DNA of 52,977 nucleotides, taken from the IMG/VR virus record IMGVR_UViG_3300021375_002481, positions 1 through 52,977 of that record; one strand, given 5' to 3'. The DNA comes from a virus. The notes beneath the pieces were generated by a model. It saw only the letters and a list, made by a program, of their open reading frames with translations. It searched no databases and was not told where the DNA came from. A program made the translations under genes and the position numbers. Shown one piece after another: positions 1 to 29,107 of the stretch (the stretch's first letter is position 1; the number at the start of each line of letters is the position of its first letter).

Positions 1-407
1 AACGAATCTGCAATGGCTTGTTTGAATTTTGTTGTACTCCACCCATGTGAACGACTTATCCAATGAATTAAAGTTCCAATTTCTTTACCTGTGTAATCTT
101 TGTCGATATAATCATCTCCTAAGAATCTTATATCAGGATTAATACTTTTTATTAAGAACAAAAGTTCTTCTTCTGTGTTATAACTAAGTATTACAGGATA
201 TATAAACATCATTTCTAACATTTCTCTACGTTCTTCTATTGAAAGAATTGGTTTTTTCTTCTCAGGTCTTTCAATTGTAGGGTCATCGTGTAAAAGTATA
301 TAAACTTCTTCACAATTATCTTTTATCTCCTTAAACATAGCAACATAACCAGGATGTATTACATCAAAGTTACCTGCTATTATTCCTTTTTTTGGTAATT
401 CTTTCAT
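1..407 (-). CDS. Cytidylyltransferase-like nucleotidyltransferase (3' end outside window)
   Basis: The first 135 codons are present; the C-terminus lies beyond base 1. The N-terminus has GNFDVIHPGY, a form of the HxGH nucleotide-binding motif of the cytidylyltransferase superfamily (TagD, RfaE C-domain, CCT). Near the window edge RSHGWSTTKF resembles the RTxGISTT signature that binds the nucleotide triphosphate. Members join CTP or ATP to a phosphorylated sugar or alcohol, giving an activated donor such as CDP-glycerol or ADP-heptose; the substrate cannot be read here. The start ATG overlaps the stop of the upstream GT7-LamG gene as ATGA, so the two are translationally coupled. A role in supplying activated sugar to the neighbouring glycosyltransferases is inference. 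The last H of HxGH is replaced by Y, which could alter activity. Confidence 0.8.
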   Translation of the reverse strand, partial: MKELPKKGIIAGNFDVIHPGYVAMFKEIKDNCEEVYILLHDDPTIERPEKKKPILSIEERREMLEMMFIYPVILSYNTEEELLFLIKSINPDIRFLGDDYIDKDYTGKEIGTLIHWISRSHGWSTTKFKQAIADS

Positions 408-1843
408 AACGTTACAGATATTTTATTTACTAATTTTGTTTTTTTATGTTTTACTTCATCATACATTAATGTATTTAACCCATCGATTCTAAAATTAACT
501 TGGTGCTCTCTCACCTCATTATAATACTTTAATTGATTAATTCGTGTTTCTTGATGTACCCATTTATTACCTATTGAAGAATTTGAATCATGTTTTAGTG
601 ATTTAAACCTTGAATTTCTTCTAAATGGCTTTGGTAAGTATGTTTTAAATGATTGTTTTAGTTTATATAAATAAACGTTCTTTAATGTAGCTTCATATGT
701 TCTACCTAAATCAATACAAGTAGTTTCACTTGATAGTTCTGCAAGTAATTGTGTTGTTAAAAACTCAGATGATTTAAATTTTCCTATATTTCTTATTTTT
801 GGCTTGTGTGGTACATTACTTAATTCTTGTATTTCTTCATCTTCCAATGCAACATCATATATTTCTACATTTGCAATGTTACCATAAAAGAATTCAGTAT
901 TTTCTTTTTTTCCATTTGCAGAACCTATGAATATTTCATCTGATGATAGTGGTAGTATAACATCATCCATTTCAATAGTTTCAACCAATTGACCATTTAC
1001 AAAAAATGAAACAAATTTACCATCTCTATATCTCATTGTAAGATATACCCATGCTTCTCCTATTATATCCGAGTTTATGGAATATGGTTTTTTGTTTATA
1101 TCATAAGTCTGACAAAAGAATCTACGAAAGGAATTGTAAAATAATCCAATGTTGTAGCCTGGTATAGATAGTATTGGGAATTCATCATAATCTTTATTTT
1201 CGTTTAATTTTACTTGCTGTGGTTTTACTAATATTGATATTGTGAAATCATCTTTTAGTAGGGTTGTCTTTTCACCTCTCAACTTGATAAACGAATCTCC
1301 ATTAAATTTAAATGCTTGTAGTTCGTCCGAACCACCCGTTTCGATTTGGTTTTTATCCAATTCTAAATTAGAATCCAAGCATCTTATTAGTAAGTCATCA
1401 TCTTCGAATCCCCATCCCCAATATTCATTAGAGAATCCGTTTATCAATTCGAAATCTTCTTTGTTAAACATAGTTACCCCACCGAAGTAATCAAAGAAGG
1501 TGGTTTCGTAATCATGTTCTTGTAAGTGTGTTGCTAAATGTAATGGTTTATCAGTATAAGAGTAATCAACATCTTCAGGTAACATATCAACATCGTGGAA
1601 TACAAAATAATCACATCCATTTTCAATGGCATGTTTGTATCCTATATTTAGAAGTTTACCTCTATTGAAAGGTTTATCATCTAATTGTTCAATAATAAAG
1701 ATTTGATAATCTAAATTAGTTAGATATTCTCCCATATGTTTTAAGAACCTTTTTAATTGTTGAGGTCTTTTTCTATATGGAATAATAATCCCTAATTTAT
1801 GAGTTATCTTCTTCGTTCGTTTCCTCCGTTGTTCTCTCTGCAT
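404..1843 (-). CDS. GT7-type glycosyltransferase with C-terminal LamG-like domain
   Basis: Residues 17-165 look like a galactosyltransferase-family (GT7, GT-A fold) catalytic domain: LGIIIPYRKRP, the metal-binding DVD at 84-86 inside FHDVDMLP, FGGVTMF, and the acceptor/donor loop WGWGFED at 142-148. Residues about 175-340 resemble a concanavalin/LamG jelly-roll (FTISILVKPQ, WVYLTMRYRDGKFVSFFVNG, FYGNIANVEIYDVAL). The C-terminal ~140 residues are unassigned. The enzyme should transfer a sugar from a UDP donor; the LamG part may hold the glycan acceptor. It is paralogous to the gene at 2035-3525. The chosen ATG makes a 47-base overlap with the preceding small gene; the only alternative close to the domain would be a rare start codon. 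No signal peptide or membrane segment is seen, so action is presumably cytoplasmic. Confidence 0.8.
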   Translation of the reverse strand: MQREQRRKRTKKITHKLGIIIPYRKRPQQLKRFLKHMGEYLTNLDYQIFIIEQLDDKPFNRGKLLNIGYKHAIENGCDYFVFHDVDMLPEDVDYSYTDKPLHLATHLQEHDYETTFFDYFGGVTMFNKEDFELINGFSNEYWGWGFEDDDLLIRCLDSNLELDKNQIETGGSDELQAFKFNGDSFIKLRGEKTTLLKDDFTISILVKPQQVKLNENKDYDEFPILSIPGYNIGLFYNSFRRFFCQTYDINKKPYSINSDIIGEAWVYLTMRYRDGKFVSFFVNGQLVETIEMDDVILPLSSDEIFIGSANGKKENTEFFYGNIANVEIYDVALEDEEIQELSNVPHKPKIRNIGKFKSSEFLTTQLLAELSSETTCIDLGRTYEATLKNVYLYKLKQSFKTYLPKPFRRNSRFKSLKHDSNSSIGNKWVHQETRINQLKYYNEVREHQVNFRIDGLNTLMYDEVKHKKTKLVNKISVTL

Positions 1844-2033
1844 CTCTTGATGGTCTGTTTTCTGAACCTTTAAATTTAATTTTTGCTAAGTTATGGATTT
1901 CCCATAGATTCCATTCAACCTTTTTCTGATGGTCTTTGATGTTTGCATCAAACATCATATCTTCAATTGATTGAACAGATTCTAAAATATCTCCCATAAC
2001 TTCCATGTGTTGTTTGAATTGTTCTTCAGTCAT
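1797..2033 (-). CDS. Small acidic hypothetical protein between two glycosyltransferases
   Basis: The product is 78 residues, acidic at the C-terminus (TEETNEEDNS) and probably helical; I do not recognise it. It begins one base after the stop of the upstream GT7-LamG gene and overlaps the downstream one by 47 bases, so it sits inside a coupled cluster. It has no signal peptide, membrane helix or metal motif. The tight packing and coding-like composition argue that it is real. A role as a small partner of the flanking glycosyltransferases is only a guess. Confidence 0.6.
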   Translation of the reverse strand: MTEEQFKQHMEVMGDILESVQSIEDMMFDANIKDHQKKVEWNLWEIHNLAKIKFKGSENRPSRDAERTTEETNEEDNS

Positions 2034-2034
2034 T

Positions 2035-3525
2035 TTAAGTAATTATTTGAAATAGTGTGTAATTAAGTTCTTCTATTTGTTCTTTCGTTGCTTCATACTT
2101 CAACGAATTTAATCCAATCTCCTTCCAATCTATTTCTTGTGTTAAAATATCGTGGAAAAAGATATCTGCATTTTCTTCAACATCAGGATCATATGAATAA
2201 TATCTTTCAATTATATCCCTATCTCTATTGTGTGTTAAAGAGTTGTATTTACCATCAATTCTGACTGGTAAATATAGTTCATCGGTAACTGCAACTTCTT
2301 CTTTATAAGTTTTTAAACTACCGTTTACTTTTATATGATTCCAATTAGAACCCTTATCTAATATAAGTTTTTTCTTGTAATGTGATGGAAATTCCATGTT
2401 ATCATTTTGATTACCAAAATCAAATATAGATGAAGGTATTAATCCAAAGTGATTTTCTATATATTTTAATGATTCATTTCCATTATAATATAATTCGTTT
2501 ATGTGTTTTGATTCTAATACAGAATTAAATAATATTATGTTAGCTAAATCTATATTAGTTTCTTTATCTGATATTTTAAAGTTTTGATACTCATTAAATA
2601 TTTTAAAATCAGCTGGTATGGTTGTTTCTATTTTTTTACCATTTAGATTTAAAACTAATTTATGTCTTTTTTTATCTAAAATAAAAACAATATGATTCCA
2701 TCTATTTCTAAAATACTCAGTTGCAACTTCATAATTCTTTCTATCAATATCCCATATCTGCGCCATAACTTGTTTTCCGTTGTTTAGAAACAAGCCAGAA
2801 TCTAATCCTTCTATACAAAATAAGTTTTTAATAGTTTCAATATCACCATCATCTTTAAACCATAAAGAAATACTAAAAGATGAATCTATCATATTTTTTG
2901 ATAAATGGTTCATCATACCATGTCCTTGTGATTGCTTATCAAAGTGAACACACTTTAGCTTATGGGTTTTGTTGTTAGTAGATGGTTCTACTTCTTCAAT
3001 TCTGTATGGTAATATATCTAATTCATCGTAATTTGAATAAACTTTATTTAAATCATAAAACTTTTCTAAGTATGCTCCACTTTCTTTTAATCTATAAAGT
3101 AAATCTAAATCCTCAAATCCATAACCCCAATATTCATTAGAATATCCATTAGCTTCTTCAAAATCTTCCCTACTAATTAAAGTTACACCACCAAAGTATT
3201 GTGGATATGGAAGTTTATTTTCATGTACTTGTACTTTAGTTGCAAGATGGGTTGGTTCTAATGGAAACCCATAGTCACATGAATCATCAATTGGTAACAT
3301 ATCAATATCATGAAAGCAAAAATAAGTATATTCCTCTGCTATTTCTTTTACAATAACATTACATAATTTACCATAATTGAATGGTCTATCATCTGTTTGC
3401 TCAGCAATAAAAATATCATATACAATTCCCTTATCCGATAAGAACTCGTGCATATGGGGAACGAAAATATCTAAGTGTTTTTGTCTATCCCTAAATGGGA
3501 CAATGATTGCAAGTTTATCTTCCAT
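2035..3525 (-). CDS. GT7-type glycosyltransferase with LamG-like domain (paralogue)
   Basis: The 496-residue product has an N-terminal GT7-like domain: LAIIVPFRDRQ, the DxD-type DID at 73-75 in FHDIDMLP, YFGGVTLI, and WGYGFED at 133-139. A LamG/concanavalin-like region follows at about 195-360 (SFSISLWFKDDG, RWNHIVFILDKKRHKLVLNLNGK). The C-terminal ~130 residues have no assignment. Architecture and motifs match the neighbour at 404-1843, so the pair arose by duplication and has diverged. The likely reaction is UDP-sugar transfer to a glycan or protein-linked acceptor. An ATATTTATA promoter-like motif lies 16 bases before the ATG, making this the first gene of a short transcription unit running to the cytidylyltransferase. 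Confidence 0.82.
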   Translation of the reverse strand: MEDKLAIIVPFRDRQKHLDIFVPHMHEFLSDKGIVYDIFIAEQTDDRPFNYGKLCNVIVKEIAEEYTYFCFHDIDMLPIDDSCDYGFPLEPTHLATKVQVHENKLPYPQYFGGVTLISREDFEEANGYSNEYWGYGFEDLDLLYRLKESGAYLEKFYDLNKVYSNYDELDILPYRIEEVEPSTNNKTHKLKCVHFDKQSQGHGMMNHLSKNMIDSSFSISLWFKDDGDIETIKNLFCIEGLDSGLFLNNGKQVMAQIWDIDRKNYEVATEYFRNRWNHIVFILDKKRHKLVLNLNGKKIETTIPADFKIFNEYQNFKISDKETNIDLANIILFNSVLESKHINELYYNGNESLKYIENHFGLIPSSIFDFGNQNDNMEFPSHYKKKLILDKGSNWNHIKVNGSLKTYKEEVAVTDELYLPVRIDGKYNSLTHNRDRDIIERYYSYDPDVEENADIFFHDILTQEIDWKEIGLNSLKYEATKEQIEELNYTLFQIIT

Positions 3526-3558: not shown

Positions 3559-4824
3559 TTAAATTGATGATTTTTGTAGAGCTTCTTTTAATAATGGAAA
3601 CGTATCTCCCCATTTTTCTTTTCTAAATCTATCAACTCGTTCAGTAGTATCTTTAAATACATCAGATTGACCATTATATTCTGCATTATAATATCTACCA
3701 ACAACATCATCATAAAACTCATCAGATAATAATCCTTTAATAGAATCTAACTTTTTTTGTCTTGTTTCTTTTGGTATTATGTTTGCTGATTGATATTCTG
3801 GTGCGTGAACATGATTTGAAATTACTCTCTTAATCATGCCAGTACCATCCAATTTAAACATACCTCTTTTAACCAAGTACTGTGTTAGCTCTTCCATATA
3901 AAGAAAATTATATGAGTTTAAAGTTTGTGTAATTGTATAATAAAAATTATGGTCATTATATTGTGTTAAAAAGTTTTTAATATTATCAATTGTAAGTTGG
4001 AAATTAGCATTTTTTCTAATGTAATCATTTCTATCACCAAAATCATCTACTGATATTGAAATACCTACAAATTGAAAATGTTTAAGTTTCTCTAATGCTG
4101 GTTTTATCTTTTCAAAATCATAATTAGCATTTGTGATATAAAATATTTTCATTTTACTTGCTAATCCATCTTCAATTAATCTATCCAATAACTTAAAGTG
4201 CTTTGGAACTAAAAATGGTTCTCCACCACTAATATGTAATTGGTCTATCATTGGAGAATGATGAATTAATGCATCGTAAAAGGTTTCATCTTCTACCCAA
4301 TCATAATTGGTATAATCCATTGTTTGTAATTCATCATAATTACTTGGAAAGTTTACCTCATCTTTCAACTTCATATAATCAGTAATCCAACTTGTTGATG
4401 ATTCTGCATTACAACTTCTACATTTTAAGTTACAATAGTTACCTAATCGAATCTCTACGTTTCTTAAATCTATTTTTATTTCACCATCTTCTTTTGTTGA
4501 TTTATCAACATCGGTCATGTAAAATGAATCTTTTTGTCTTTTACTTTTACCACCTGCTAATTCTACATCATGACAAGTTTTACAAGCTGGTGGTACTTCA
4601 CCCTCAACCATCTGTTTTCTGATTTGTTTAAATGAATCAGAATTAATAATAGCTGGGATACCTTTACTAATGTTTATTTTTTTATATCCACCATCTGGTG
4701 TTATATCAGATGCAGCAGATTGTCCATGTGCATGATTAGATACACAACATACAGAACAAACTCCATGTGGATGAACACTAATATGCTTCCAAGGTAAATC
4801 ACATAAAAAACGAGTTTCTTTCAT
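3559..4824 (-). CDS. Radical SAM protein with N-terminal SPASM/twitch-like Cys module (array member 5)
   Basis: The radical SAM [4Fe-4S] motif is C131-x3-C135-x2-C138 (NYCNLKCRSC), with GGEP at 200-203 for SAM binding. Ahead of it, residues 7-90 carry C8 with LPW, a CSVCC cluster, and CKTCH at 81-85, resembling a SPASM/twitch auxiliary cluster domain, which in most families follows the core. Such enzymes make SAM radicals to modify peptides, sugars or nucleotides; the substrate here is unknown. It is the most divergent of five consecutive paralogues and last in their operon. Its start overlaps the previous stop as TAATG, so translation is coupled. Iron-sulfur chemistry would rely on host cluster assembly. 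The family call is firm; the biochemical role is open. Confidence 0.88.
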   Translation of the reverse strand: MKETRFLCDLPWKHISVHPHGVCSVCCVSNHAHGQSAASDITPDGGYKKINISKGIPAIINSDSFKQIRKQMVEGEVPPACKTCHDVELAGGKSKRQKDSFYMTDVDKSTKEDGEIKIDLRNVEIRLGNYCNLKCRSCNAESSTSWITDYMKLKDEVNFPSNYDELQTMDYTNYDWVEDETFYDALIHHSPMIDQLHISGGEPFLVPKHFKLLDRLIEDGLASKMKIFYITNANYDFEKIKPALEKLKHFQFVGISISVDDFGDRNDYIRKNANFQLTIDNIKNFLTQYNDHNFYYTITQTLNSYNFLYMEELTQYLVKRGMFKLDGTGMIKRVISNHVHAPEYQSANIIPKETRQKKLDSIKGLLSDEFYDDVVGRYYNAEYNGQSDVFKDTTERVDRFRKEKWGDTFPLLKEALQKSSI

Positions 4825-6125
4825 TAGTATGCTGTACTATTATTTATTGATAAATCATGTGGAATAGAATTATACCAATCTGTATATTCTGGTATAATCT
4901 CTAAAAATCTAAATTTTTCTTCTCTCCCATCATCTAACTTTTCTGTATTCCATTTTAGAAGTTTTTCAATTTCTTCTCTATTCTCAGCCAAAGGTTCTTC
5001 CATGAATCGAAATATACTATCATACTTTTTTCTTAGTTCATCTCTTTCTTGTTCATCTAAAGATTTTAAGTGTTTAAAATATCTTTTTTTGACTTCTTGT
5101 TTTAACTCATCTGGTAAAATGTTGATGTTATAATGATGTGGATTTGTTAATATATTATTTAAATGAATATTCCAATGTTCAACACCCAATGATTTCATAT
5201 GTTCGTAAAATTCAGGAATATACATAACATTAAATATATTGGTTGTACATGATACATGAAAGTTTATGTTCGCATCTAAACACTTTTTTACATTTTCTTC
5301 TATAACATTCCATTTTGTACCTTTTCTTGAATATTCAGCATTTTTTCCGAACCCATCAATGGAAGCAAATATGGTTACATTACCATAATCTTGCTCTATG
5401 AATGGTTTCCACATTTCTATGTTATCATATTTCTTAAACTTTAAATATCCTAAGTTGGTATTATATCTCAATCTTAAATTAGTGTTCCCTACTTCAACTA
5501 ATTTTTGTAAAATATAATAATGCTCTTCCATTAAAAGAGGCTCTCCTCCTGCAAAGTATATCTCTTCTACACTTTCTATAAATTCATCCAAATATGTATC
5601 TATATTTTTCTTAGAATAATCGTTTACATTTATTATTGCTTTCGGTAATGGAGAACCACCATATATTTTTACTTCATCCTCCCACCATTTAGATGATAAA
5701 AATGAACCACACATTCTACACTTCATATTACATAAGTTTGAGAATCTGAAATCCCAATACAGTAATTTAAAATCATCATTATGTCCATCTGCAGATGTAT
5801 TATCCGTTACACTTGGAATAAGGTGTTCAAAGTTTCTGTTAGATGATGTTCTTGTTGAATCTAAGGTGTTTTTTTCTTGTTGATAACACTTTCTACAACT
5901 ATGATGTTGTTTACCTTCTAACATATCTTTACGAATAGATTTCATGGTACCCCCATTCCAAAGTTCTTCCATGGTGTTATCTTTAAGGTTACCAATATCT
6001 TCTCTCCAATCAGTAAGACAACAAGGATATACATTTCCGTTCGGCCATGTGTTTAAATGTATCCATGGTAATACGCAAAATGATTCTGAAATTTTATCTC
6101 CAGGATTTTTTAGCTTTTCATTCAT
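4824..6125 (-). CDS. Radical SAM protein with N-terminal SPASM/twitch-like Cys module (array member 4)
   Basis: The 433-residue product carries the radical SAM motif C132-x3-C136-x2-C139 (NLCNMKCRMC) and GGEP at 193-196. The N-terminal module reads FCVLPW, NGNVYPCC, GNLKDNTMEELWN and CRKC, a close likeness of a SPASM domain placed before rather than after the core. The start overlaps the preceding stop by 4 bases (ATGA), and its own stop overlaps the next start by one base, so it lies in a tightly coupled operon with four paralogues. Of the five, its N-terminal module is the most classical. It probably performs a radical modification on a peptide or glycan intermediate; the substrate is not readable. 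Confidence 0.9.
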   Translation of the reverse strand: MNEKLKNPGDKISESFCVLPWIHLNTWPNGNVYPCCLTDWREDIGNLKDNTMEELWNGGTMKSIRKDMLEGKQHHSCRKCYQQEKNTLDSTRTSSNRNFEHLIPSVTDNTSADGHNDDFKLLYWDFRFSNLCNMKCRMCGSFLSSKWWEDEVKIYGGSPLPKAIINVNDYSKKNIDTYLDEFIESVEEIYFAGGEPLLMEEHYYILQKLVEVGNTNLRLRYNTNLGYLKFKKYDNIEMWKPFIEQDYGNVTIFASIDGFGKNAEYSRKGTKWNVIEENVKKCLDANINFHVSCTTNIFNVMYIPEFYEHMKSLGVEHWNIHLNNILTNPHHYNINILPDELKQEVKKRYFKHLKSLDEQERDELRKKYDSIFRFMEEPLAENREEIEKLLKWNTEKLDDGREEKFRFLEIIPEYTDWYNSIPHDLSINNSTAY

Positions 6126-7489
6126 ATTGCATCTTTTTCTTGTAGTGTTTCGATACTTTTAAACCATTCTATAAATTCCCAAGGAAGATACTCTTCAATT
6201 GGTTTTTGTCTACGCTTAGCATATTGAAAAACAAAGTTTTTAAAATCGTTGTGTTTGTTTTCCATTGCATCTGAATCTTCATATGATACATCAACTTTTC
6301 TTAAATAGGTAACTAATCTTTCGTAGTGATTTATTTCCCATTCTTTCATCCAATCTCTATTTTTATTAACTGCCTTTTCAATTTTATCTGCTAATGAATT
6401 TTTTACATCTTGTGATATTATATTTACAGATTGAAATGATGGAAATCTTAGAATGTTTACACTCATATAGAATGCTTCTTTATCATCAAATTCTTTTCTC
6501 CAATTTACAATTTTTTCTAAAAACTCATCTACACTCCAAATAGATAAAGAAGATATAGTCATCATAATGTGTACTGAATTTATATTTTCTGAATGGTACA
6601 TTCTTAAAATGTTTTTTTCCCACACATCCCAATCAAATCCATCTCTTACAAACTCTTGTAATTCACCAATACATTCTGCAGATGTATAAACATCAAATGA
6701 TTTAAAGTTTTTTGCTGCATCTATCAAGGTATCCATTCTTTCATCTTCCATTATTAAATTGGAATTTACTGCAAAGTTGAATGTTTCGTTATCACACATT
6801 TCAAGTAACTTCCAAAATGATGGTGAACGAGCAGGTTCTCCACCAGATACTCTTAATTCTTGTAATCCTCCTCTTATTTCTTCAAACCATTCGTAGAATT
6901 TTTCTATATATGGGTTGTTAATATTTTTATTACCATATGGCATTGCATGATGACCTGTATTTTTAAAAGTAAACCCACCACTTGTTTTCATGTTCTGATA
7001 CGGTCCTCCTCTTGAAATATCTTGATGCCAAGTTGATGAGAATTCTGCGTTACAATAAGAACAAGCTAAATTACATAAGTTATCGAAAGCAAGTTCAACT
7101 GTTTTTGGAATTACGTTTGCATCCCAAGGCATGTTTTTAATTGCTTTTACTTCTTCATCTGTGTATCTATAAGTTTGATAAACTCTATCAGAAAAAATAC
7201 CACTATCCTTTTTAGCAGCATCTTCTACTCTCCAACAATAAGAACATTCTGCTGGTCTTTCTCCCTCCAACATTTTTTTACGTTGTTCTTTTTTAAATTT
7301 AGTGTTATGTAGAGCGGTTTTGTTTTCTAATAACTCACCTTTTGGAATAGAGTGTGCAAGTGGATGATGACAAGAAGCCGTTCTTCCATTTCCTAACCAA
7401 ATTGATACGTTGTACCATTTTGCTGCACAAAAAGAAGTTGATATGGAATCAATTATTTTTGCTGTATTCTGTAAACTTTTTTCTGGCAT
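6122..7489 (-). CDS. Radical SAM protein with Cys/His-rich N-terminal module (array member 3)
   Basis: The product has 455 residues. The radical SAM motif is C139-x3-C143-x2-C146 (NLCNLACSYC), with GGEP at 216-219. The N-terminal module has FCAAKW (C21), SCHHP (C40), and CSYCWRVED (C82, C85). Compared with members 4 and 5 a CC pair is replaced by CHHP, so an auxiliary cluster or metal would be bound by mixed Cys/His ligands. This CHHP subtype is shared with the two upstream paralogues, marking three closer copies. The ATG gives a 37-base overlap with the upstream gene; a weak TAGG sits just before it. Function is presumably radical modification of an unknown substrate within the operon's pathway. 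Confidence 0.88.
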   Translation of the reverse strand: MPEKSLQNTAKIIDSISTSFCAAKWYNVSIWLGNGRTASCHHPLAHSIPKGELLENKTALHNTKFKKEQRKKMLEGERPAECSYCWRVEDAAKKDSGIFSDRVYQTYRYTDEEVKAIKNMPWDANVIPKTVELAFDNLCNLACSYCNAEFSSTWHQDISRGGPYQNMKTSGGFTFKNTGHHAMPYGNKNINNPYIEKFYEWFEEIRGGLQELRVSGGEPARSPSFWKLLEMCDNETFNFAVNSNLIMEDERMDTLIDAAKNFKSFDVYTSAECIGELQEFVRDGFDWDVWEKNILRMYHSENINSVHIMMTISSLSIWSVDEFLEKIVNWRKEFDDKEAFYMSVNILRFPSFQSVNIISQDVKNSLADKIEKAVNKNRDWMKEWEINHYERLVTYLRKVDVSYEDSDAMENKHNDFKNFVFQYAKRRQKPIEEYLPWEFIEWFKSIETLQEKDAI

Positions 7490-8832
7490 AACCTATAATA
7501 ATTATTTAACTCTTTAAATGTACTTTCAAAATCTGTACCTCTTCGTTTATCATATTCATTCACAAAATTAACGAAATCTTTTCTATGAATATTTGTTTGT
7601 TTTTTATCATATGTGTTTTTGTACATATGTTCAATCAATCCTTGAAGTTGATTTATTTGCTCATTTGTCAAACATCCATCACCATCCTCATACTTACCCC
7701 AAGTTCTTTCTTGAATAAGTTTTTCAACATCTTTTTTAAATTTATCTTTTGTTTCTATATCTAAATTTACAATAGATAAAAATTCAGGATAAATCAAAAA
7801 GTTGTTTACAAATTGTACTTTATTGTAATCAACTTCCTTGTTATAAATAGAACGAAGTTTTAAAAGGTATCTTACAAAATCACAATATGATTCTACTGTT
7901 AAAATGTTTACCGCTGTCATACAAGAAGCAAGTACATTCTTCACATTTGATAAAACCTTTTCTAAATTTTCTTGCCATTTTTCAAACTTCAATCCATATC
8001 TTATATATTCATTTTGCGAACCCATTGATTCACCACTTGTGAATATTTGTATTTCTTTTACTTTACCATCTAACTGATTAAATTTATCTATTAACTTATC
8101 AATCAGATTATCAGGTACCATTAAATTTGTATTTACACAAAAAATTAAATTTTGATTTGGATTTTCAATCAATTCATCCATTACTTTCCAAGTATCTTTT
8201 GATAAAAGTGGCTCACCTCCAGTAATTCTTAGTGTATGTAACTTTGGATAAAGCTCTGGCCACCATTCCCAAAACGCATTAACGTATGGATTTTCTTCTG
8301 TTTGTTTATAGGTTCTTTTATCTTCATCTAATTTATTATAATTTTGTGATGTAGGGTATCCACCATATCTTTCAATCTCTTCTAACCAAGTTGTAGAATT
8401 TGAATGTGTACAATATGCACATTTCATATTACAAGTGTTAGAAAATGAAACCTCTAAATAACTTGGTTCGATATCTCTCGTACCTTTTTCTAAGATTTCA
8501 TCTTTTTTAATTTGAGAAAAAGAATTACCCGATTTGTAAATTCTTTCTGAAAAATAATCATCTCCCAAATCTTCTATTTTCCAACAATACTCACATTCAC
8601 TTGGTCTATCACCACGCAACATCTTTTTCATTTGTTGCTTTTTGTATCGAGTATTATGTAGAGCTTTTGGATTTCTCTTAATTTCCCTTAGTGGTATTTT
8701 ATGTGGTGATGGATAATGACATGAATGGTTATATCCATTCTGTAAGTAAAGTGTTAATTGAGACCACTTTGCTAAACAGAAACTTTTAGATACCTCATCT
8801 AACTCTTCCTTTACCTTTAAATGATGTTTCAT
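7453..8832 (-). CDS. Radical SAM protein with Cys/His-rich N-terminal module (array member 2)
   Basis: The 459-residue product has radical SAM cysteines C134, C138 and C141 (NTCNMKCAYC) and GGEP at 205-208. The N-terminal module has FCLAKW (C19), SCHYP (C38) and CEYCWKIED (C80, C83), so it belongs to the CHxP subtype. It is most similar to array member 1 (shared AFWEWWPELYP and KxQRxxML stretches). It starts by TAATG overlap with that gene's stop. Two similar adjacent enzymes suggest a recent duplication, with the copies either acting on successive positions of one substrate or pairing as a heterodimer; this is inference. Confidence 0.88.
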   Translation of the reverse strand: MKHHLKVKEELDEVSKSFCLAKWSQLTLYLQNGYNHSCHYPSPHKIPLREIKRNPKALHNTRYKKQQMKKMLRGDRPSECEYCWKIEDLGDDYFSERIYKSGNSFSQIKKDEILEKGTRDIEPSYLEVSFSNTCNMKCAYCTHSNSTTWLEEIERYGGYPTSQNYNKLDEDKRTYKQTEENPYVNAFWEWWPELYPKLHTLRITGGEPLLSKDTWKVMDELIENPNQNLIFCVNTNLMVPDNLIDKLIDKFNQLDGKVKEIQIFTSGESMGSQNEYIRYGLKFEKWQENLEKVLSNVKNVLASCMTAVNILTVESYCDFVRYLLKLRSIYNKEVDYNKVQFVNNFLIYPEFLSIVNLDIETKDKFKKDVEKLIQERTWGKYEDGDGCLTNEQINQLQGLIEHMYKNTYDKKQTNIHRKDFVNFVNEYDKRRGTDFESTFKELNNYYRLCQKKVYRIQQK

Positions 8833-10247
8833 TACAGTTTACCACACTCATCATAAAATTCTGCTAATTCTGGAAAGGTTTCTTTAAAGTTAGTACCCCT
8901 TCGTGCATCGTGAGCTTTAAACATATTATAAAAGTTTCTACGAAGCTTATTTTTTTCTTCTTCATCCATTGGTTCATCAAACCAATCAACTATTCTTCTT
9001 ACTTTACCAATTTCAATTTGAGTAAATCCTAAGTAGTGTTCCTTCCAATCTTCAATTTCCCAAAGAGGTTTAACTGTATGTAAGGTTTCCATTTGAACTG
9101 CTATTGATTCCAATGTATCTCTCCACTCTTTCGGTAGAATCTTAACAATTTGGTGTGTTGGATATCTTAGATAAGCAGAATCTAATGTTAAAGATGTAAC
9201 CCAATGTCTATCTGGTGAGTTATGTTTTGTTTTTTGTTCAAACACCCAATCAACTAAATCTGCATATTTTGGAACAGATAATGCATTGAATGTACTCATA
9301 ATTGCAATAGATAGTTTTTTAGTACTTGAAAGTAATTCATCTACTCTTTCTTGCCATACTTCAAAATCTAATCCATTTCTAATATACTCGGCTTGGGTTC
9401 CAAACGTATCTACTGATGTGAATATTGTAAGTTCTTTTATTCTTCCACTTTCTTCTAATTCTGCTAATTTTATTTTTAATCTTTCATATAACTTATCAGG
9501 TATACCTAAGTTTGTGTTGATAGAAAGTTTTAAATTCATGTTTGGATTATCAGTTGTAAGGATATGGTCAATTACTTTCCAAAAATCAGGTGACATTGAT
9601 GGTTCACCGCCCGTAATTCTAAATGTATCCATTTCAGGATAAAGTTCTGGCCACCATTCCCAAAATGCATCAACATATGGATTTGCTTCAGAGTGTTTGA
9701 ATGGCATTTTACCAACTTCTTTGAACCACTCTAAGTTATTAAAGTTATCTGTTGTTGGGTATGCTCCATGTTTCTCTAATTCTTGTACCCAAGCAGATGA
9801 ATATTGAGGTCCACAATAAGAACATTTAAAGTTACACGCATTTGAGAATGCAACTTCTACATATTTTGGGTTGAAGTTTTTTCTCCATCCCATTTCTTTA
9901 ATTTTTTCTAAATGAGGTTTAGACCATGGTTCGAATGATTTATAAGTTCTATCCGAAAACTCAGGTCCACTATCTTCAACTCTCCAACAGTAATCACATT
10001 CATCAGGCCTTTCACCATTTAACATGGCTCTTCTTTGCCTTTTCTTGTGTTTTGTATTATGTAGAGCAGATGGATTTCTTCTTAATTCAAGAAGTGGAAT
10101 TTTATGTGGTACAGGGTGGTGACATGAATGAGTCTCTCCATTTTGTAAGTGAATCGTAACTTGAGTCCATTTTGCTAAACAAAATCCACAACCCGTTTCA
10201 TTCAATGTATCTCTAAAATCGTAGAGCTCTCCTCGGTGGTCTATCAT
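8832..10247 (-). CDS. Radical SAM protein with Cys/His-rich N-terminal module (array member 1)
   Basis: At 471 residues this is the longest of the five. Radical SAM cysteines are C138, C142 and C145 (NACNFKCSYC), with GGEP at 213-216. The N-terminal module shows C20 and C23 in CGFCLAKW, SCHHP (C42) and CDYCWRVED (C84, C87). The start overlaps the stop of the upstream GT2 gene by 4 bases. It is the first of the radical SAM run, which follows a methyltransferase and a glycosyltransferase in the same operon, so the array most likely acts on a sugar, glycolipid or peptide that these enzymes also touch. Substrate and product are not readable from sequence. Confidence 0.88.
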   Translation of the reverse strand: MIDHRGELYDFRDTLNETGCGFCLAKWTQVTIHLQNGETHSCHHPVPHKIPLLELRRNPSALHNTKHKKRQRRAMLNGERPDECDYCWRVEDSGPEFSDRTYKSFEPWSKPHLEKIKEMGWRKNFNPKYVEVAFSNACNFKCSYCGPQYSSAWVQELEKHGAYPTTDNFNNLEWFKEVGKMPFKHSEANPYVDAFWEWWPELYPEMDTFRITGGEPSMSPDFWKVIDHILTTDNPNMNLKLSINTNLGIPDKLYERLKIKLAELEESGRIKELTIFTSVDTFGTQAEYIRNGLDFEVWQERVDELLSSTKKLSIAIMSTFNALSVPKYADLVDWVFEQKTKHNSPDRHWVTSLTLDSAYLRYPTHQIVKILPKEWRDTLESIAVQMETLHTVKPLWEIEDWKEHYLGFTQIEIGKVRRIVDWFDEPMDEEEKNKLRRNFYNMFKAHDARRGTNFKETFPELAEFYDECGKL

Positions 10248-11089
10248 ACTGAAACTATTTTATCTATAAGTATTTCCCATTGAGAATAACTGTGATGATA
10301 ATTATCATCCATATACTCTATATGAAACTCTGGATTGTTGATATCTATTTTATTATCATTTAATTGAATTGCTCTATACATCTTTTTATATTCTTGCCAA
10401 AATGTATATTCTTCTTTTGTATTAGAAACTTCTTTTAATCTTTCCAAAACAGTAGAATCCCATTTAAAGTGATGAACTTGTATAAATCCCTCACCATTAC
10501 CTATTGGGTATTTTTTCTTATGAAATTTACCCCATGAGTTTTTTCCATCTTCACCAACAACAGCATAGTGTTGTCCGTTTGTTACATCAATAGAACCTTT
10601 CATTACACAAACCTTATTTGGACACGCTCCACTCATTGGATATCTAAAAAATCCAGCGTTTGGAAATGCTTTCCATACATCTGTATATTTGTGAACTTTA
10701 GGAAAAGTTCCTTCATTCCCAACTCTATCTATAAATCCACCTGTAATAAATTCCCATCCATTTTGCTCACATTCCTTAATCATTTTACGAATGTTTTTTG
10801 GATATAAATGAAACTCATCATCATCTGCCACTATCCACCATTCATTTGGTTTAGTTTGCTTTACCTTATTATAAAGTTCAGTTACCTTTTCCCAATTAAA
10901 TTTAGGTTCTGTAACAACCATATATGGTTCGATACCACATCGGTTTACTTCTTCAAGTATTCCATCATCATCACTCTGTCTGTAAACTACAACGAAGATT
11001 TCATCTACCATTGATTCGTAATGCTTTAACATATGAGGAAACAAAGTAGTATTGTGGCCTACAACGGTAACTAAATTTAATTTTTGCAT
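10244..11089 (-). CDS. GT2-like (Glyco_tranf_2_4 type) glycosyltransferase
   Basis: The 281-residue product has a GT-A style N-terminus (LNLVTVVGHNTTLFPHMLKH, EIFVVVYRQSDDDG) and the metal/nucleotide-sugar motif ADDDEF at 88-93. The histidine-rich HYAVVGEDG and VHHFKW segments are typical of the Glyco_tranf_2_4 group in phage and capsule clusters. It should transfer a sugar from a nucleotide-sugar donor. It overlaps the upstream methyltransferase gene by 13 bases and the first radical SAM gene by 4, so it is cotranscribed with the array. No membrane helix is visible, so it is probably a soluble cytoplasmic enzyme. Donor and acceptor are unknown. Confidence 0.8.
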   Translation of the reverse strand: MQKLNLVTVVGHNTTLFPHMLKHYESMVDEIFVVVYRQSDDDGILEEVNRCGIEPYMVVTEPKFNWEKVTELYNKVKQTKPNEWWIVADDDEFHLYPKNIRKMIKECEQNGWEFITGGFIDRVGNEGTFPKVHKYTDVWKAFPNAGFFRYPMSGACPNKVCVMKGSIDVTNGQHYAVVGEDGKNSWGKFHKKKYPIGNGEGFIQVHHFKWDSTVLERLKEVSNTKEEYTFWQEYKKMYRAIQLNDNKIDINNPEFHIEYMDDNYHHSYSQWEILIDKIVSV

Positions 11090-11856
11090 CTTTGTATAAA
11101 TGTTAATCCAGTTGAAGCTGGTTTATTTCTTTGTATTCCATTATTAAAGAAATTAAAAATTTCCCAATCATTACCCTCCTTTAACTCTTTGATTAATTTA
11201 GATGGTCCTTCTGCGTATTCTTGGTGATATCCTTCTCGAATATCATCACTTATTATATGTTCTTTTTCAAACGAAGAATCAGTATCATGTATTGATATAA
11301 TTCCATATGGTTTTAATAATTGAGAATATAATTCAAAATCATTCTTTACATCTTCATATGTGTGACCAGCATCTATATGTAGATAATCTATTTTTATATC
11401 CTCTTTTACAAAAAAATTGTAAAATGCCTCTTCGGTAGTTTTTAGTAATAATCTTGGGTCAAAGTTTTTTCTAAAAAATGAATCTTTATCGGTCCAATCC
11501 GTAAACCCTCCTACTCCATTAGATGCATCAACCAAATATGTTGAACCAATATCTCCCCAATTTATATCATTATTTCCATCAAAGATTTCAGCCTCGTATA
11601 AATCAAATCTTGCTTGTGTCATTATTCGTGGAATGAATCCACCACCACTACCTAAACATACACAAACTTTTGCACGAAGATAGTGAATAGCACTATACAC
11701 CAATAACCCATCCCCCATACTTAGTTCAGTAGCACCATGAGTCCAACGGTATTTAATGGGATTATGAACTTCATACTCTTTACCATCATCACCTTCTTTA
11801 GTGTCTAAGTTATTGGTTATGAAGTCTTTTATAAATCTTGTATTGAGAATACTCAT
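11077..11856 (-). CDS. Class I SAM-dependent methyltransferase
   Basis: The Rossmann methyltransferase signature is present: VCVCLGSGGGF (glycine-rich motif I, 65-74), acidic DLYEAEIFDG (motif II), HIDAGHTYEDV at 160-170 and SIHDTD at 188-193. This is the Methyltransf_24 pattern seen with sugar and macrocin-type O-methyltransferases. It has 259 residues and no signal peptide. It is the first gene of a seven-gene operon (methyltransferase, GT2, five radical SAM). The 46-base leader contains two runs of five G and is preceded by ATATTTATA motifs. It probably O-methylates a sugar or other hydroxyl group; radical SAM and O-methyltransferase genes often occur together in natural-product and glycan pathways. 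Confidence 0.8.
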   Translation of the reverse strand: MSILNTRFIKDFITNNLDTKEGDDGKEYEVHNPIKYRWTHGATELSMGDGLLVYSAIHYLRAKVCVCLGSGGGFIPRIMTQARFDLYEAEIFDGNNDINWGDIGSTYLVDASNGVGGFTDWTDKDSFFRKNFDPRLLLKTTEEAFYNFFVKEDIKIDYLHIDAGHTYEDVKNDFELYSQLLKPYGIISIHDTDSSFEKEHIISDDIREGYHQEYAEGPSKLIKELKEGNDWEIFNFFNNGIQRNKPASTGLTFIQRCKN

Positions 11857-11961: not shown

Positions 11962-13023
11962 TTAGTAAAAAGAAAGAATTTGAGTACGGACTTGGTCAAT
12001 CCATTTTTCTTTGTTATCAAATTTTTTCATAAACTCTATAAGTTTATTTCTTTCTATTGTACGCTCTTGGTGTGAATCTTTTAAAATTCTTCTAATACAA
12101 TTATCAAATTCATTTTTTGTACTAGCTCTATATTTGTAATCACAATCAATTCCCCAATCTTTATTAAGAATTGGTAATTTTCCATAATCTACTGCTTGAA
12201 AAATAGAATAACCAAATGGTTCTCTAAAATAGGCACCATGAAATATTCCCCAATTCTTACCAAAAAATGAATAATGTATATCAGTATCCCATTGATACAA
12301 ATTAATGGTTGGTAAATTAAATTCCGAAGTTTCTACCATATTTTTAAAATCATACTGACCTGTTAGTGCGTATCCTTTTTTGATTCCATTCATCCAATGT
12401 AAACATTTTCTTGTTTCTGCTCTTGCAGCAAATCCAACCTCTCCATTATTAACATGAGTTGTTAAATCAGCAGGACCTTTAAATTCATAATAATTAGGTA
12501 AAACATATGTAAAGTTTGGATGATTTGATAGTAATTTTGAATTATTTATTCCTATCCAAATTCTTCTTTTACAAGTCATTAAAAATTCATCATACCATTT
12601 TTCATCAACCTTTGTTTGAAACTGTAATCTATCTAATTCCGGTAGTTGATTCCAAACTCCCATCATATCTTTTGGATATGCGTGTACAAAGCAAATACCA
12701 AATTTATCTTCAAACTCCCATAAATGTTTTCTCATATGATAATGAGGATGTAAAAAGTGAACCCAATTAGATTCTTCTCCCCATTTACGAGTTATTTCAG
12801 GATTATCAGCATGAAAGTGATATTTTAAACCAGTAGGTAGTGATGATGGATTAAAATTTGGTGGTTTTTTAGAATCAATAAGTAACCTAAATTTTTTTTT
12901 ATTAGGTAATGTTTTCCATACTTCTTGTAAGAAGTTATTTACCCACATGTCTGCACCACCCTGAACATTATTTCCTGCTCCGGTACAAACTAACAATATC
13001 CAAGGAGAACTTTTTTTAGACAT
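11962..13023 (-). CDS. GT-B (GT4-like) glycosyltransferase
   Basis: The 353-residue product has the GT4 C-terminal donor-site pattern REPFGYSIFQAVDYGKLPIL at 267-286, matching the usual E-P-F-G...EA...G-P-V consensus. The N-terminus has CTGAGNNVQGGADMWVNNFL, typical of the glycine-rich start of GT-B enzymes. FLHPHYH and FVHAYP segments could be acceptor-site parts. It would be a retaining transferase using a nucleotide sugar. It stands alone between the BACON-repeat protein and the methyltransferase operon, with its own ATATTTATA motif 16 bases before the ATG and AGG near the start. Its position beside the tail-fibre genes makes fibre glycosylation a reasonable guess. Confidence 0.75.
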   Translation of the reverse strand: MSKKSSPWILLVCTGAGNNVQGGADMWVNNFLQEVWKTLPNKKKFRLLIDSKKPPNFNPSSLPTGLKYHFHADNPEITRKWGEESNWVHFLHPHYHMRKHLWEFEDKFGICFVHAYPKDMMGVWNQLPELDRLQFQTKVDEKWYDEFLMTCKRRIWIGINNSKLLSNHPNFTYVLPNYYEFKGPADLTTHVNNGEVGFAARAETRKCLHWMNGIKKGYALTGQYDFKNMVETSEFNLPTINLYQWDTDIHYSFFGKNWGIFHGAYFREPFGYSIFQAVDYGKLPILNKDWGIDCDYKYRASTKNEFDNCIRRILKDSHQERTIERNKLIEFMKKFDNKEKWIDQVRTQILSFY

Positions 13024-13064: not shown

Positions 13065-15170
13065 TTATTCTTGTGGAACTTCCGGTGGACCTTCACCCCC
13101 TCCTCCGTCATCAGTACCTTCATGAGTATAAGTTCTTACATAAATATCTATTGATGTTGCTGATGTTACTTGTATTTGGAAAGAACGGTCTGATGTACTA
13201 TTGTTTGTAAGTACTCTAAGAGTTTTATAAACTCCAGTTGTTCCTACTGTTGCTGTTTGGTCTGATGTTGATGTAGTACCCCCACCAGTATTCCATACCG
13301 CATTTGATGTACCTGTTGTAATTTCCCAAGTTACAGTTGAACTATAATCTTGTCTAGCGTAAATATTATATTCTCTATATTGTGATGAATTATTTGATAA
13401 TGTTACTACACTTGTATCACCATTTTCTTCATAACTAACCCCACCATAACTTACATCTAAATTAGAATCTGCTCCTGCTTGTGATAATGAAATTGTGTGG
13501 TCAGTTTCACCTGTTGCTGAAATAGTAACTGTACCTGTTCTAACTCCACCACTATTAGATGTAGCAGTTACTCCAATTGTATGAGTTCCAGCAACACCAC
13601 TTGTTGCACTTAAACTAAAACCAGTACCACTTACTGTGGCTGTCCATGCATAAGAGGTTTCAAGTGTAATATTTTCTGTTTCTCCACCTTGTATAAATGA
13701 AAGTGAAGATGGTGATGCAGTCCAGACAGTTTGAAACAATTGAGTTAATGTTGTGGTATCACTAGCACCACCTGCATTAAAAGTTAAAGTTCGTGTTTTA
13801 TTGGAAGTATCTGTATTGTTTGAGACTGGATAAACATATGCTTGGTATGTTCCACTTGAGGGTGAAGTTACTGATGCTTGGTTTGCAACAATACTTCCTC
13901 CCATCTCCACATATTGATAGGTGTATGTACTTGTTTGGTAAGTATCAACAAATCTCCACTCACTTGTATTACCCAATGTAAATGTTATACCACCACTATT
14001 ATAATTTCCTGCAGTACCAGTTACAGTTTTTGCTACACTTGTTCCACTTTGATTATAATTCCACTCAGCCGGGTCTGTTATATTTGCAGTTGCTGCTGGT
14101 GCACCACCTTGAGAAACTTGTACCGTATGAGTTGATGAATCAATTGAATCTAAAGTTACAGTTACATTTACACTTCTTGTGGATGTACTTGAGTTTGAAG
14201 ATGGATATACATAAAACGTACTATTACTTTCTTTGGTGGATGTAAAACTTGTAGAATCATCTGATATTGTGGAAATATTATAATTTGAAGTTACAGTAAA
14301 GGTAATTCTATCAGTATATGAAGAATCGGTATAAACGAAATTAGAAGTTGAATAATGAACACCTCCTATAAGATTTGTACCTGCTACTGAGAAAGTTGGT
14401 TCTCTTTGTACTCGTACAGTATCAGTTACATTTGCATCTGAAATGTTATCAGGATCAACAGTTACAGTTGCTGTTTTATCAGAAGAAGTAGAATTAGAAT
14501 CTGATTTTACTTCTATAAACTCATCACCAGTACCACTTATGTTAGATGTGGAAAATGAATTACCCGAATTATATATTCTATGAGAAAATCCACTTTCACC
14601 CGATATACTCGCAACCCAAGTTACCACACCTTCGGGGTCAGTTTCTATTTTGTAATGTTCACCTTCACCACCACCATGTCCAAAAGTCATTACACCAGTC
14701 TGTCTTACAATTGTAAGAGTAGCATCATTATCTTCTTGTTGTACTGTTAAGGTTATATTTGTTAAATCAGGTGATTCTAAAGTTATATTCCCACTCCTAC
14801 TTGTACCATCTAAAGGTTGAGCTTGTATAACAATATCAAAAGTATTATCTGTTCCTTCTGAACCAGAACCTAAAGCCACAGTAGCAAATGAAATATTTTC
14901 ATCGTTAATTTTAAAGTTACCATCCGAGGTGTAGGTTATTGTAGAAGTTTGACCACCCTTATCAGCACTGGTTATACTCGTTGGGGATATAGATAATGAT
15001 GTAGCAAAATTATCTAAACTTAATCCAAACAACTCATTCATACCATGGGGAGAGGTTAATCCAAATAATTCTGATGCTGATTCTAAATCTAATTCAGCAT
15101 TTGAACTATTACCTAACTCTTCATTGATATCATCAAATCCTATTGCGTTTCCTTCTTCTGGTAATGGCAT
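13065..15170 (-). CDS. BACON-like Ig-repeat virion protein
   Basis: The 701-residue product consists mainly of repeated beta-sandwich units, several ending in V/L-x-Q (for example ITLTVQQE, HTVQVSQGG, DTTTLTQLF, HTISLSQAG). Within units are patterns such as SPSSLSFIQGGETENITL and GVRTGTVTISATG. This is the BACON domain pattern, named for its abundance in Bacteroidota proteins and known in crAss-like phages. At least five units are discernible from residue ~55 to ~680. The C-terminus ends in a Gly/Glu/Pro-rich stretch (GGGGEGPPEVP). There is no signal peptide. The gene starts by TAATG overlap with the tail-fibre stop, so it is probably an adhesin or fibre accessory that binds a host-surface or mucin-like glycan. 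Confidence 0.75.
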   Translation of the reverse strand: MPLPEEGNAIGFDDINEELGNSSNAELDLESASELFGLTSPHGMNELFGLSLDNFATSLSISPTSITSADKGGQTSTITYTSDGNFKINDENISFATVALGSGSEGTDNTFDIVIQAQPLDGTSRSGNITLESPDLTNITLTVQQEDNDATLTIVRQTGVMTFGHGGGEGEHYKIETDPEGVVTWVASISGESGFSHRIYNSGNSFSTSNISGTGDEFIEVKSDSNSTSSDKTATVTVDPDNISDANVTDTVRVQREPTFSVAGTNLIGGVHYSTSNFVYTDSSYTDRITFTVTSNYNISTISDDSTSFTSTKESNSTFYVYPSSNSSTSTRSVNVTVTLDSIDSSTHTVQVSQGGAPAATANITDPAEWNYNQSGTSVAKTVTGTAGNYNSGGITFTLGNTSEWRFVDTYQTSTYTYQYVEMGGSIVANQASVTSPSSGTYQAYVYPVSNNTDTSNKTRTLTFNAGGASDTTTLTQLFQTVWTASPSSLSFIQGGETENITLETSYAWTATVSGTGFSLSATSGVAGTHTIGVTATSNSGGVRTGTVTISATGETDHTISLSQAGADSNLDVSYGGVSYEENGDTSVVTLSNNSSQYREYNIYARQDYSSTVTWEITTGTSNAVWNTGGGTTSTSDQTATVGTTGVYKTLRVLTNNSTSDRSFQIQVTSATSIDIYVRTYTHEGTDDGGGGEGPPEVPQE

Positions 15171-23009: not shown

Positions 23010-23171
23010 ATGAGAAAATATACCACAATACAGATAAAAAAAGAAACCCATGAACTCTTACAAGGGTATTGTAACGAACATGGGTATAAGTTAAGTGGGT
23101 TGGTTGAAACCCTTATTAAGCAAAAGGTAGGTACACCTAAGCCTCAAAATGTTTTAAAGGTTAGAACCTAA
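23010..23171 (+). CDS. Small ribbon-helix-helix (CopG/Arc-type) putative DNA-binding protein
   Basis: A 53-residue ORF from ATG 23010 to TAA 23171. The pattern fits the RHH fold: a short basic beta strand (KYTTIQIKKET), helix A (HELLQGYCNEHG), a turn (YKLS) and helix B (GLVETLIKQK), followed by a short tail. RHH proteins dimerise and read the DNA major groove with the strand, acting as repressors or nickase accessory factors. It is the only gene on the plus strand. It runs convergently into the SbcD-SbcC gene with an 11-base overlap of the 3' ends, and diverges from the tail-fibre gene. It might regulate the divergent promoters beside it. The fold call rests on pattern only. Confidence 0.65.
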   Translation: MRKYTTIQIKKETHELLQGYCNEHGYKLSGLVETLIKQKVGTPKPQNVLKVRT

Positions 23172-26100: not shown

Positions 26101-26319
26101 TGCACACTCGGTGAGAAACCAACTTATTTCGTGAACAAGTTCAGGTGACATCTCAGTTTTAGCATGAGCAATATCACCAGCAATATAAATGAGGGAATCC
26201 TCAATTTTATCTTCTTTAACTTTTTTTAGGAATTTTTTGAATACCAATCTGTATTCTTTGTGTCTTTGTAGATTTCTAATGTGTAAATCTGCAAGGTGGT
26301 AAACTTTGTTTATAACCAT
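23161..26319 (-). CDS. gp47-gp46: Fused SbcD-SbcC (gp47-gp46, Mre11-Rad50) recombination nuclease
   Basis: One 1052-residue chain holds both subunits. Residues 1-370 are the Mre11/gp47 phosphoesterase: DLH at 11-13, AGD at 47-49, GNHD at 83-86, FHGP at 153-156, GDIH at 187-190. Residues ~375-1052 are the Rad50/gp46 ATPase: Walker A in APNASGKSS (406-414), long coiled coils with the zinc-hook CDVC at 726-729, signature CSGMERF at 963-969, Walker B FLVIDEGF at 990-997 and a D-loop. In T4 these are separate genes whose products resect DNA ends for recombination-dependent replication and host DNA degradation. The ATG overlaps the upstream SGNH gene by 10 bases, in one operon with primase. All key residues appear intact. 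Confidence 0.93.
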   Translation of the reverse strand: MVINKVYHLADLHIRNLQRHKEYRLVFKKFLKKVKEDKIEDSLIYIAGDIAHAKTEMSPELVHEISWFLTECAKLRETVLITGNHDCNLNNSHRLDVLTPIIENLGNDRIHYLRDTGIYNIHNLTFVVYSILDNKENWPKGDTVDGENTICLFHGPVNKAQTDIGYTVSSNSFQVDMFDGFDMAMLGDIHKRQTFGEGYEQVAYAGSMIQQNHGELLENHGYLLWDIPTRTFTEHHLHNDYGFLTVDVVEGKIPQWVYDEIGTKLPKYPRLRLRFTRTDASDMKRCITELKKLFKVAEVTVTRTDTIGQLKTNQKVNKNIVGNVKDETFQNQLIRDYLERQYLLEDDELDKIAEINKELNGHIDDSDSAGNILWTPKTFEFSNMFSYGEDNLIRFEKAQGIMGIFAPNASGKSSMWDALSFCIYDKTSRTNISKNILNNRKDMFYCKFTFEIDGVDYFIERKAKYVRKKTSVKVDVNFWRENGDVIESLNGEQRKDTNKNIEKFLGKFEDFVLTALSLQGNNALFIDKSQSERKEILSQFIGVDIFDKLYQKAADENRDNATLIRKFKSDDFTTKLASIDTELKTDKNEYKLLEMSQKALKEEDDILNRQIIKLNEKIVKLNSDSGVSIEELEKRLKNLEMKVEGLETTKGSLQDRITFREEQQIVLEEILDKFDEEDLEEGINTLTSLKTNIGTIEGEIEKVNIKLESLYERKDHLDSHKYNEECDVCMENSKSILETKDAVGSQIKDFNDNLQEFEKEKLDLTIKIDSLSNYEEEWDKYKDAKDKEDKLDREISQLINKLSTTETEEIRLDTQVTQQTQLIDEYYKNEKQIIKNKEIREQITGVRQKQTGIKDELKRINSDVLKLNGRVSALQNQKETIEDRIDEVKNLEQQSKLFDFYLNALGKDGVSYELIEKSLPMIEGEVNNILAQIVEFGMQLEIDGRNINAYLVYGDQRWSLEMCSGMERFISGLAIRVALINVCNLPRPNFLVIDEGFGTLDSENLQSLFMLFTYLKTQFDFVMVISHIDSMRDVVDGLIEIKKINGFSNVRF

Positions 26320-29076: not shown

Positions 29077-29107
29077 CAAATATACAAAAAATTTATGAAA
29101 TATCCAA
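29077..29107 (-). promoter_or_regulatory. Bacteroidota-type promoter (TTG-N20-TATATTTG) beside the glycosyltransferase-like gene
   Basis: TTG at 29105-29107 and TATATTTG at 29077-29084 are separated by 20 bases on the minus strand, the same spacing as before primase. The -7 box ends 3 bases before the ATG at 29073, so the transcript would be leaderless or nearly so. It overlaps the end of the GIY-YIG gene. Confidence 0.45.

Follow-up and report, generated by a model that had tools for sequence, protein, structure and literature searches.

Radical S-adenosylmethionine (rSAM) enzymes are known to occur in multiple copies in several phages. The Campylobacter phages CP220 and CPt10 encode 11/12 rSAM genes, five of which form an interchangeable module (PMC2853527), and, as described in the accessible excerpts of the respective papers, the T4-like environmental genome TARA_ERS488813_N000010 contains 12 such genes (PMC5332604), host recognition clusters of pelagimyophages differ by rSAM cassettes (PMC7029224) and viral contigs from the Tasman Sea are rich in rSAM and glycosyltransferase (GT) genes (PMC7150976). 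Since CP220/CPt10, TARA_ERS488813_N000010 and the pelagimyophages have already been published, phages with multiple rSAM genes are not new, and the assertion in a preliminary description of the DNA analysed here that phage rSAM genes are known singly has to be withdrawn. Such arrays recur in uncultured phages, and the excerpted literature has so far gone no further than counting them among Fe-S or auxiliary metabolic genes. Here, we describe an array of five rSAM genes, designated A to E, located at positions 3559-10247 on the minus strand of IMG/VR record IMGVR_UViG_3300021375_002481, an uncultured bacterial virus, whose whole analysed stretch of 52,977 bases is referred to as the window. This array is real, widespread and conserved, and in the searchable literature no description was found of a colinear orthologous rSAM array, of its fixed partner cassette or of an rSAM-LamG fusion.

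The five back-to-back paralogues noticed in the preliminary description are all present and fill this region as overlapping open reading frames (ORFs), with neighbours sharing 1, 4, 37 and 1 bases (A/B, B/C, C/D and D/E, respectively). Each of the five proteins contains exactly one CxxxCxxC and one GGEP motif, scores above the Pfam Radical_SAM cut-off and is a member of one family, NCBIfam NF033640 (N_Twi_rSAM), with 288-395 bits as compared to the curated cut-off of 170 and with matches spanning nearly the whole model. This model names a domain layout and no function, and neither an ordered five-member array nor its partners are part of it. Pairwise identity among A-E amounts to 24-42%, and in a tree of 205 rSAMs, constructed by a quick method without bootstrap and with some long branches, A, B, C, D and E fall into separate clades, each with members from other phages. 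Due to this divergence and clade separation they are old paralogues, and a recent tandem duplication is ruled out. All five genes are under purifying selection, with a ratio of non-synonymous to synonymous substitution rates (dN/dS) of ~0.07-0.22 as measured against the relatives L006-L008, and such low values together with the intact motifs rule out pseudogenes. An assembly artefact is equally ruled out, because all five genes recur in identical order on the independent contigs L006-L008. In rSAM E, seven putative cluster-ligating cysteines (23, 42, 84 and 87; 138, 142 and 145) are invariant in 36 aligned rows, of which C23, C42, C84 and C87 may ligate a putative twitch cluster at the N-terminus. 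From what is known of the family, A-E are predicted to cleave SAM at the CxxxCxxC cluster and to hold a second, N-terminal cluster. No C-terminal SPASM domain was found in A-E, and the Pfam SPASM matches are N-terminal and limited to A (residues 8-85, SPASM-type) and B (residues 17-81).

Using rSAM E as a query, 413 related stretches were retrieved from viral contigs, of which 80 loci, some on near-duplicate contigs, were kept for counts. These loci contain one to eight rSAM-family genes each, with at least five in 33 of the 80, a tally that includes 22 divergent members without GGEP, two of which were tested and were both found to be under the NF033640 cut-off. The partner genes are shared to a large extent: GT7 is present in 78/80 loci, a GT2-type glycosyltransferase in 64, a small charged protein designated sm3 in 62, a LamG protein of family f5 or f14 in 58 and a methyltransferase (MT) in 57. 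MT immediately precedes GT2 in 54 loci, the exact order MT-GT2-sm3-GT7-GT7-rSAM is observed in 41, and the cassette sits among tail genes in most loci; the window deviates from this usual order, as its GT7 genes come after the array. When reciprocal best members were assigned per locus, the array orders were E (23 loci), EC (7), ECB (20), ECA (5), ECAB or ECBA (16) and EDCBA (5, comprising L006-L008 and two others), with BE/EB as exceptions (4). Wherever present, E precedes C and C precedes A/B, and membership appears nested. Such nesting would arise if later steps depended on earlier ones, and the fixed order with apparently nested membership thus suggests stepwise extension of a pathway. The proposal of a single multi-step system is consequently strengthened by an array that is conserved and co-occurs with a fixed partner set, and homologues standing alone in unrelated contexts were not encountered in phages, where even a lone E keeps the MT/GT2/sm3/GT7/GT7 context. 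A viral-contig query with rSAM A, based on an exact-pattern search that limits the yield, retrieved only three near relatives. A side observation concerns the protein encoded at 14581-15606 of L058 and similar proteins (about 13 rows of the tree), which occur late in arrays, carry a GxGDP-type motif in place of GGEP and, in the cases tested, score under the NF033640 cut-off.

In the window, the gene order is a 105-base AT-rich gap followed by MT, GT2, E, D, C, B, A, GT7-LamG, sm3, GT7-LamG and a nucleotidyltransferase gene (Table 1). From MT through the nucleotidyltransferase gene, neighbours overlap or are at most 33 bases apart, and hence transcription as a single unit is likely. The methyltransferase and glycosyltransferase reported earlier as preceding the array are confirmed, the former by its PF13578 match and the latter, which itself lies just under the Pfam cut-off, by 11 of 12 homologues that match PF13704. 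While the array, MT and GT2 were thus correctly recognised as belonging together, the GT7-LamG pair, sm3, the nucleotidyltransferase and the GT-B gene had been overlooked as parts of the unit. The catalytic region of the phage GT7 proteins comprises the Pfam GT7 N and C domains and contains DxD (DIDMLP) and WGxGxED-type motifs, and the protein encoded at 2035-3525 matches PDB structures of beta4GalT7 and beta4GalT1 with E ~1e-32. The phage GT7 proteins share the catalytic region and motifs with beta-1,4-galactosyltransferases 7 and 1, from which they differ by a LamG-like domain after the catalytic region. The predicted structure of the protein encoded at 11962-13023, whose family is present in 13 loci including the window, gave 145 PDB matches at E <=0.001 using Foldseek, with sucrose-phosphate synthase, BshA, PimA and MshA at the top. 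sm3 has a conserved middle, with a motif like LEERKVKALEKIANSLDALTxWFEEIDKxEWSxR, and variable charged ends. The window copy is divergent and ends in NRPSRDAER and an acidic tail.

A further connection between the partner genes and the array is provided by LamG domains. Proteins of the families f5 (194 aa) and f14 (248 aa), which come after the first rSAM in related loci, have no useful Pfam match; when compared by hhalign with the C-terminal LamG domains of GT7, they gave probabilities of 97-99%, as against <1% for unrelated cassette-family controls. In L080/L081, a 931-aa ORF (8594-11386, plus strand) consists of two LamG-like domains fused to an E-type rSAM. LamG domains thus recur on GT7 proteins, within arrays as genes of their own and in fusions with the first rSAM, and this tie to both the glycosyltransferases and the first rSAM, as judged from sequence, is the strongest single clue, short of proof, to a shared carbohydrate-bearing target.

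Comparison with other lineages sets this array apart from the Campylobacter modules. CP220/CPt10 resemble the window in having five rSAM genes in one phage module and, in the case of CP220, nucleotide-sugar transferase-type genes. However, the module proteins are shorter, carry the rSAM motif near the N-terminus and match the N_Twi models of the present analysis weakly or not at all, and since those tested are not of the N_Twi type, an array of the same type as the Campylobacter modules is ruled out. Pelagimyophages (PMC7029224) and TARA_ERS488813_N000010 (PMC5332604), according to the excerpts, likewise combine multiple rSAM genes with a T4-like marine phage genome, and in pelagimyophages a single variable structural region houses rSAM genes, GTs and tail fibres together (PMC7029224). 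The window shares with their host recognition cluster a tail-fibre gene upstream and GTs in a structural-region island, whereas the excerpts of both papers, compared by description, give no rSAM family, order or orthology, no link to LamG or GT7 and no rSAM pathway. Among 50,697 isolate phage records, no match was found for E, sm3, GT2 and one GT7, and the only matches to rSAM B and to an E relative, weak ones, were in the Vibrio phages K566/K567. The isolated phages K566/K567 and KVP40 (Schizotequatrovirus) resemble the window in that they carry several N_Twi-type rSAMs with glycosyltransferases nearby, which in K566 and KVP40 are of the GT8 or GT4 type. However, identity between the K566 rSAMs and the tested array proteins is only ~20-23%, and no GT7-LamG or sm3 match was obtained in isolate phages. 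A viral-contig query with a K566 rSAM, again by yield-limiting exact patterns, gave no match. A second phage group, represented by 78 viral loci, mostly contains four to eight such rSAMs (at least five in 62/78), which are accompanied by carbamoyltransferase, SGNH, DegT aminotransferase and epimerase genes, and is without GT7, LamG, sm3 or MT matches. In bacterial genomes, 286 matching stretches were found, mostly single-copy with mixed neighbours, and some of those on contigs of metagenome-assembled genomes (MAGs) are probably phage. The bacterial homologues L100, L143 and L158 sit in polysaccharide-type clusters, and a scan of 114 neighbours of bacterial homologues revealed no dominant family. 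As a separate observation, the MAG contigs L102, L136 and L101, assigned to Bacteriovoracaceae and Elusimicrobia, carry arrays of four to eight rSAM-model matches in what is either host or phage DNA. A literature search found nothing on twitch domain-containing radical SAM together with phage, nor on an "N-terminal twitch".

The AlphaFold2 (AF2) model of rSAM E (pLDDT 92.1, pTM 0.89) has only distant PDB neighbours, namely the peptide-modifying SkfB and SuiB, the sugar-acting BlsE, AprD4 and DesII, viperin and MoaA, with TM-scores of ~0.3-0.5. The array proteins share the rSAM core fold with BlsE, AprD4, DesII, SkfB and SuiB, at TM-scores of ~0.3-0.4, and differ from them in that the accessory cluster domain is N-terminal. 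Among predicted viral structures, uncultured phage rSAMs are the best matches (target-normalised TM up to 0.86), with KVP40 Q6WHP4 at 0.74. The predicted fold thus supports family membership and, as the TM-scores to SkfB and SuiB are low, it does not decide the substrate.

Taken in this genomic context, A-E may catalyse consecutive steps of a single glycan-tailoring pathway, which a myovirus-like phage would encode in its host-recognition (tail-fibre) region. We give this reading roughly an even chance of being correct. The glycan would be built by GT2, the two GT7-LamG proteins and the GT4-like glycosyltransferase, and the LamG domains, which in related phages are also stand-alone between rSAMs or fused to E, would retain the glycan or glycoprotein that serves as acceptor. 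At its CxxxCxxC [4Fe-4S] cluster, each rSAM would then cleave SAM, with the N-terminal "twitch" cluster serving for redox or substrate contact, and would introduce a radical modification of its own into the sugar, such as dehydrogenation, epimerisation or deoxygenation. E would act before C (with D between them in some phages) and A/B would follow, MT might cap the product, and either the virion tail or the surface of the infected host would present the glycan; the sugar substrate, the individual reactions, their order and the display site are thus all conjectural. Consistent with this reading are the conserved cassette partners, the array order, the LamG links, the carbamoyltransferase, aminotransferase and epimerase genes of the second group, the Vibrio phage rSAMs near GTs, the bacterial homologues in polysaccharide-type clusters, the GT4-like GT of the window with a carbamoyltransferase and a sulfotransferase elsewhere in it, and the presence of BlsE, AprD4 and DesII among the fold matches. 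Several points weigh against it. The neighbours of the mostly single-copy bacterial homologues are not mainly sugar genes, the best structural matches, although at low TM-scores, are the peptide maturases SkfB and SuiB, LamG domains are able to bind proteins in addition to sugars, and no substrate for the NF033640 family was found in the searchable literature. Furthermore, the nestedness is confounded, as E was the query by which the loci were retrieved and contig ends truncate several of them, and the A/B assignments, at near 30% identity, hold at group level only. In a bolder form, which is possible but proposed tentatively, a series of up to five to eight rSAMs, ordered and non-redundant, would form a LamG-scaffolded assembly line acting successively on one glycan or glycoprotein, yielding a surface structure unknown elsewhere, and enzymes would be gained or lost between lineages to alter that structure in the course of an arms race between phage and host or among phages. 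Physiologically, if the rSAM arrays do constitute an ordered pathway for glycans with a link to tail fibres, this would account for the retention of many costly Fe-S enzymes by a virus and would provide a function for the NF033640 family and a new source of sugar-modifying radical enzymes.

Of the two options raised at the outset, maturation of a glycan or of a peptide, the partner genes favour the former, and the latter is the main rival, although an unlikely one. In that case, the rSAMs would alter residues, by epimerisation, cross-linking or thioether formation, of sm3 or of a tail-fibre/baseplate protein that is also glycosylated by the GT7 proteins. Most characterised SPASM/twitch rSAMs act on peptides, and the top Foldseek matches of E, SkfB and SuiB, are maturases of ribosomally synthesised and post-translationally modified peptides (RiPPs); beta4GalT7, among the closest solved GT7 structures, acts on protein-linked xylose, and the small protein sm3 is kept in 62/80 loci. 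However, only sm3 fits a precursor by size, and it contains no Cys/Gly-rich or repeated core and has no match in the second array group, while overlapping array genes leave no space for a further precursor within the array. The secondary structure of the E model also contains no obvious pattern of the leader-binding winged-helix RiPP recognition element (RRE), although no search with an RRE model was made. Within the glycan reading, and included in the probability given to it, is another target that is also rather improbable, namely that the modified sugars are destined for the host surface (O-antigen or capsule) and exclude superinfecting phages. Modification of the host O-chain is what the pelagimyophage authors propose, in the excerpted text, for GTs of the host recognition cluster (PMC7029224), but the position among tail genes in most loci fits decoration of the virion at least equally, and none of the cassette genes could be recognised as encoding a transporter, ligase or polymerase.

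Assembly of the five enzymes into a hetero-oligomer, with some subunits being structural rather than sequential catalysts, would agree with the coupled expression suggested by overlapping genes. This seems quite improbable, given the rSAM motif, GGEP and low dN/dS in all five, and such partners are not obligatory since E is without the others in 23 loci and with only C in 7. Least probable is a nucleotide-level function, either viperin-like nucleotide synthesis or DNA base hypermodification. Viperin is among the fold matches of E and weak viperin-model (NF038283) matches occur in the window, but at up to 34.8 bits they lie far under the curated cut-off of 180, by which viperin-like defence is ruled out, and the neighbours are sugar and tail genes and not genes for nucleotide or DNA modification.

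Table 1. Genes of the rSAM cassette and its surroundings in the window, listed in gene order
Feature	Position	Strand	Remarks
Large tail-fibre/baseplate protein, upstream of cassette	15170..22924	-	2584 aa; tail families phrog_8215, phrog_5668, phrog_14572
Probable structural/adhesin protein, upstream of cassette	13065..15170	-	Weak BACON-type PF13004, 22 bits, under cut-off 25
GT-B fold (GT4-like) glycosyltransferase	11962..13023	-	AF2 model pLDDT 86; no Pfam match
Methyltransf_24-type methyltransferase (MT)	11077..11856	-	PF13578, 43.5 bits
GT2-type glycosyltransferase	10244..11089	-	PF13704, E 1.6e-5, 25.8 bits, just under cut-off 27.5
rSAM E, first in array order	8832..10247	-	471 aa; NF033640 344.9 bits
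rSAM D, second in array order	7453..8832	-	459 aa; NF033640 325.0 bits
rSAM C, third in array order	6122..7489	-	455 aa; NF033640 288.5 bits
rSAM B, fourth in array order	4824..6125	-	433 aa; NF033640 395.4 bits
rSAM A, fifth in array order	3559..4824	-	421 aa; NF033640 313.9 bits; CxxxCxxC 131, GGEP 200
GT7 (beta-1,4-galactosyltransferase-like) with C-terminal LamG-like lectin domain	2035..3525	-	PF13733/PF02709 above cut-off; PF13385 just under
sm3, small charged protein, no known family	1797..2033	-	78 aa; family in 62/80 related loci
Second GT7 with C-terminal LamG domain	404..1843	-	PF13733, PF02709 and PF13385 all above cut-off
CTP_transf_like (cytidylyltransferase-like) nucleotidyltransferase, runs off window edge	3..407	-	PF01467, 43.6 bits

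Among other families of related cassettes, f17 has no match by sequence and a predicted GT-B fold, and PDB profile searches on f7, c1 and c4 gave nothing convincing. The other genes of the window include tail-fibre, baseplate-wedge and further phage genes. On the minus strand, a Sulfotransfer_2 protein (29553-30125; PF03567, 60.3 bits), possibly a carbohydrate sulfotransferase, is encoded by an ORF that overlaps that of a SegE-like GIY-YIG endonuclease (29093-29590; PF19835). A NodU/CmcH-type carbamoyltransferase, whose family also occurs in related rSAM cassettes, is encoded at 50200-51906 (minus strand). Finally, a 1052-aa ORF at 23161-26319 (minus strand), near a primase gene and among virion genes, joins a metallophosphoesterase with an SbcC/gp46-like ATPase.

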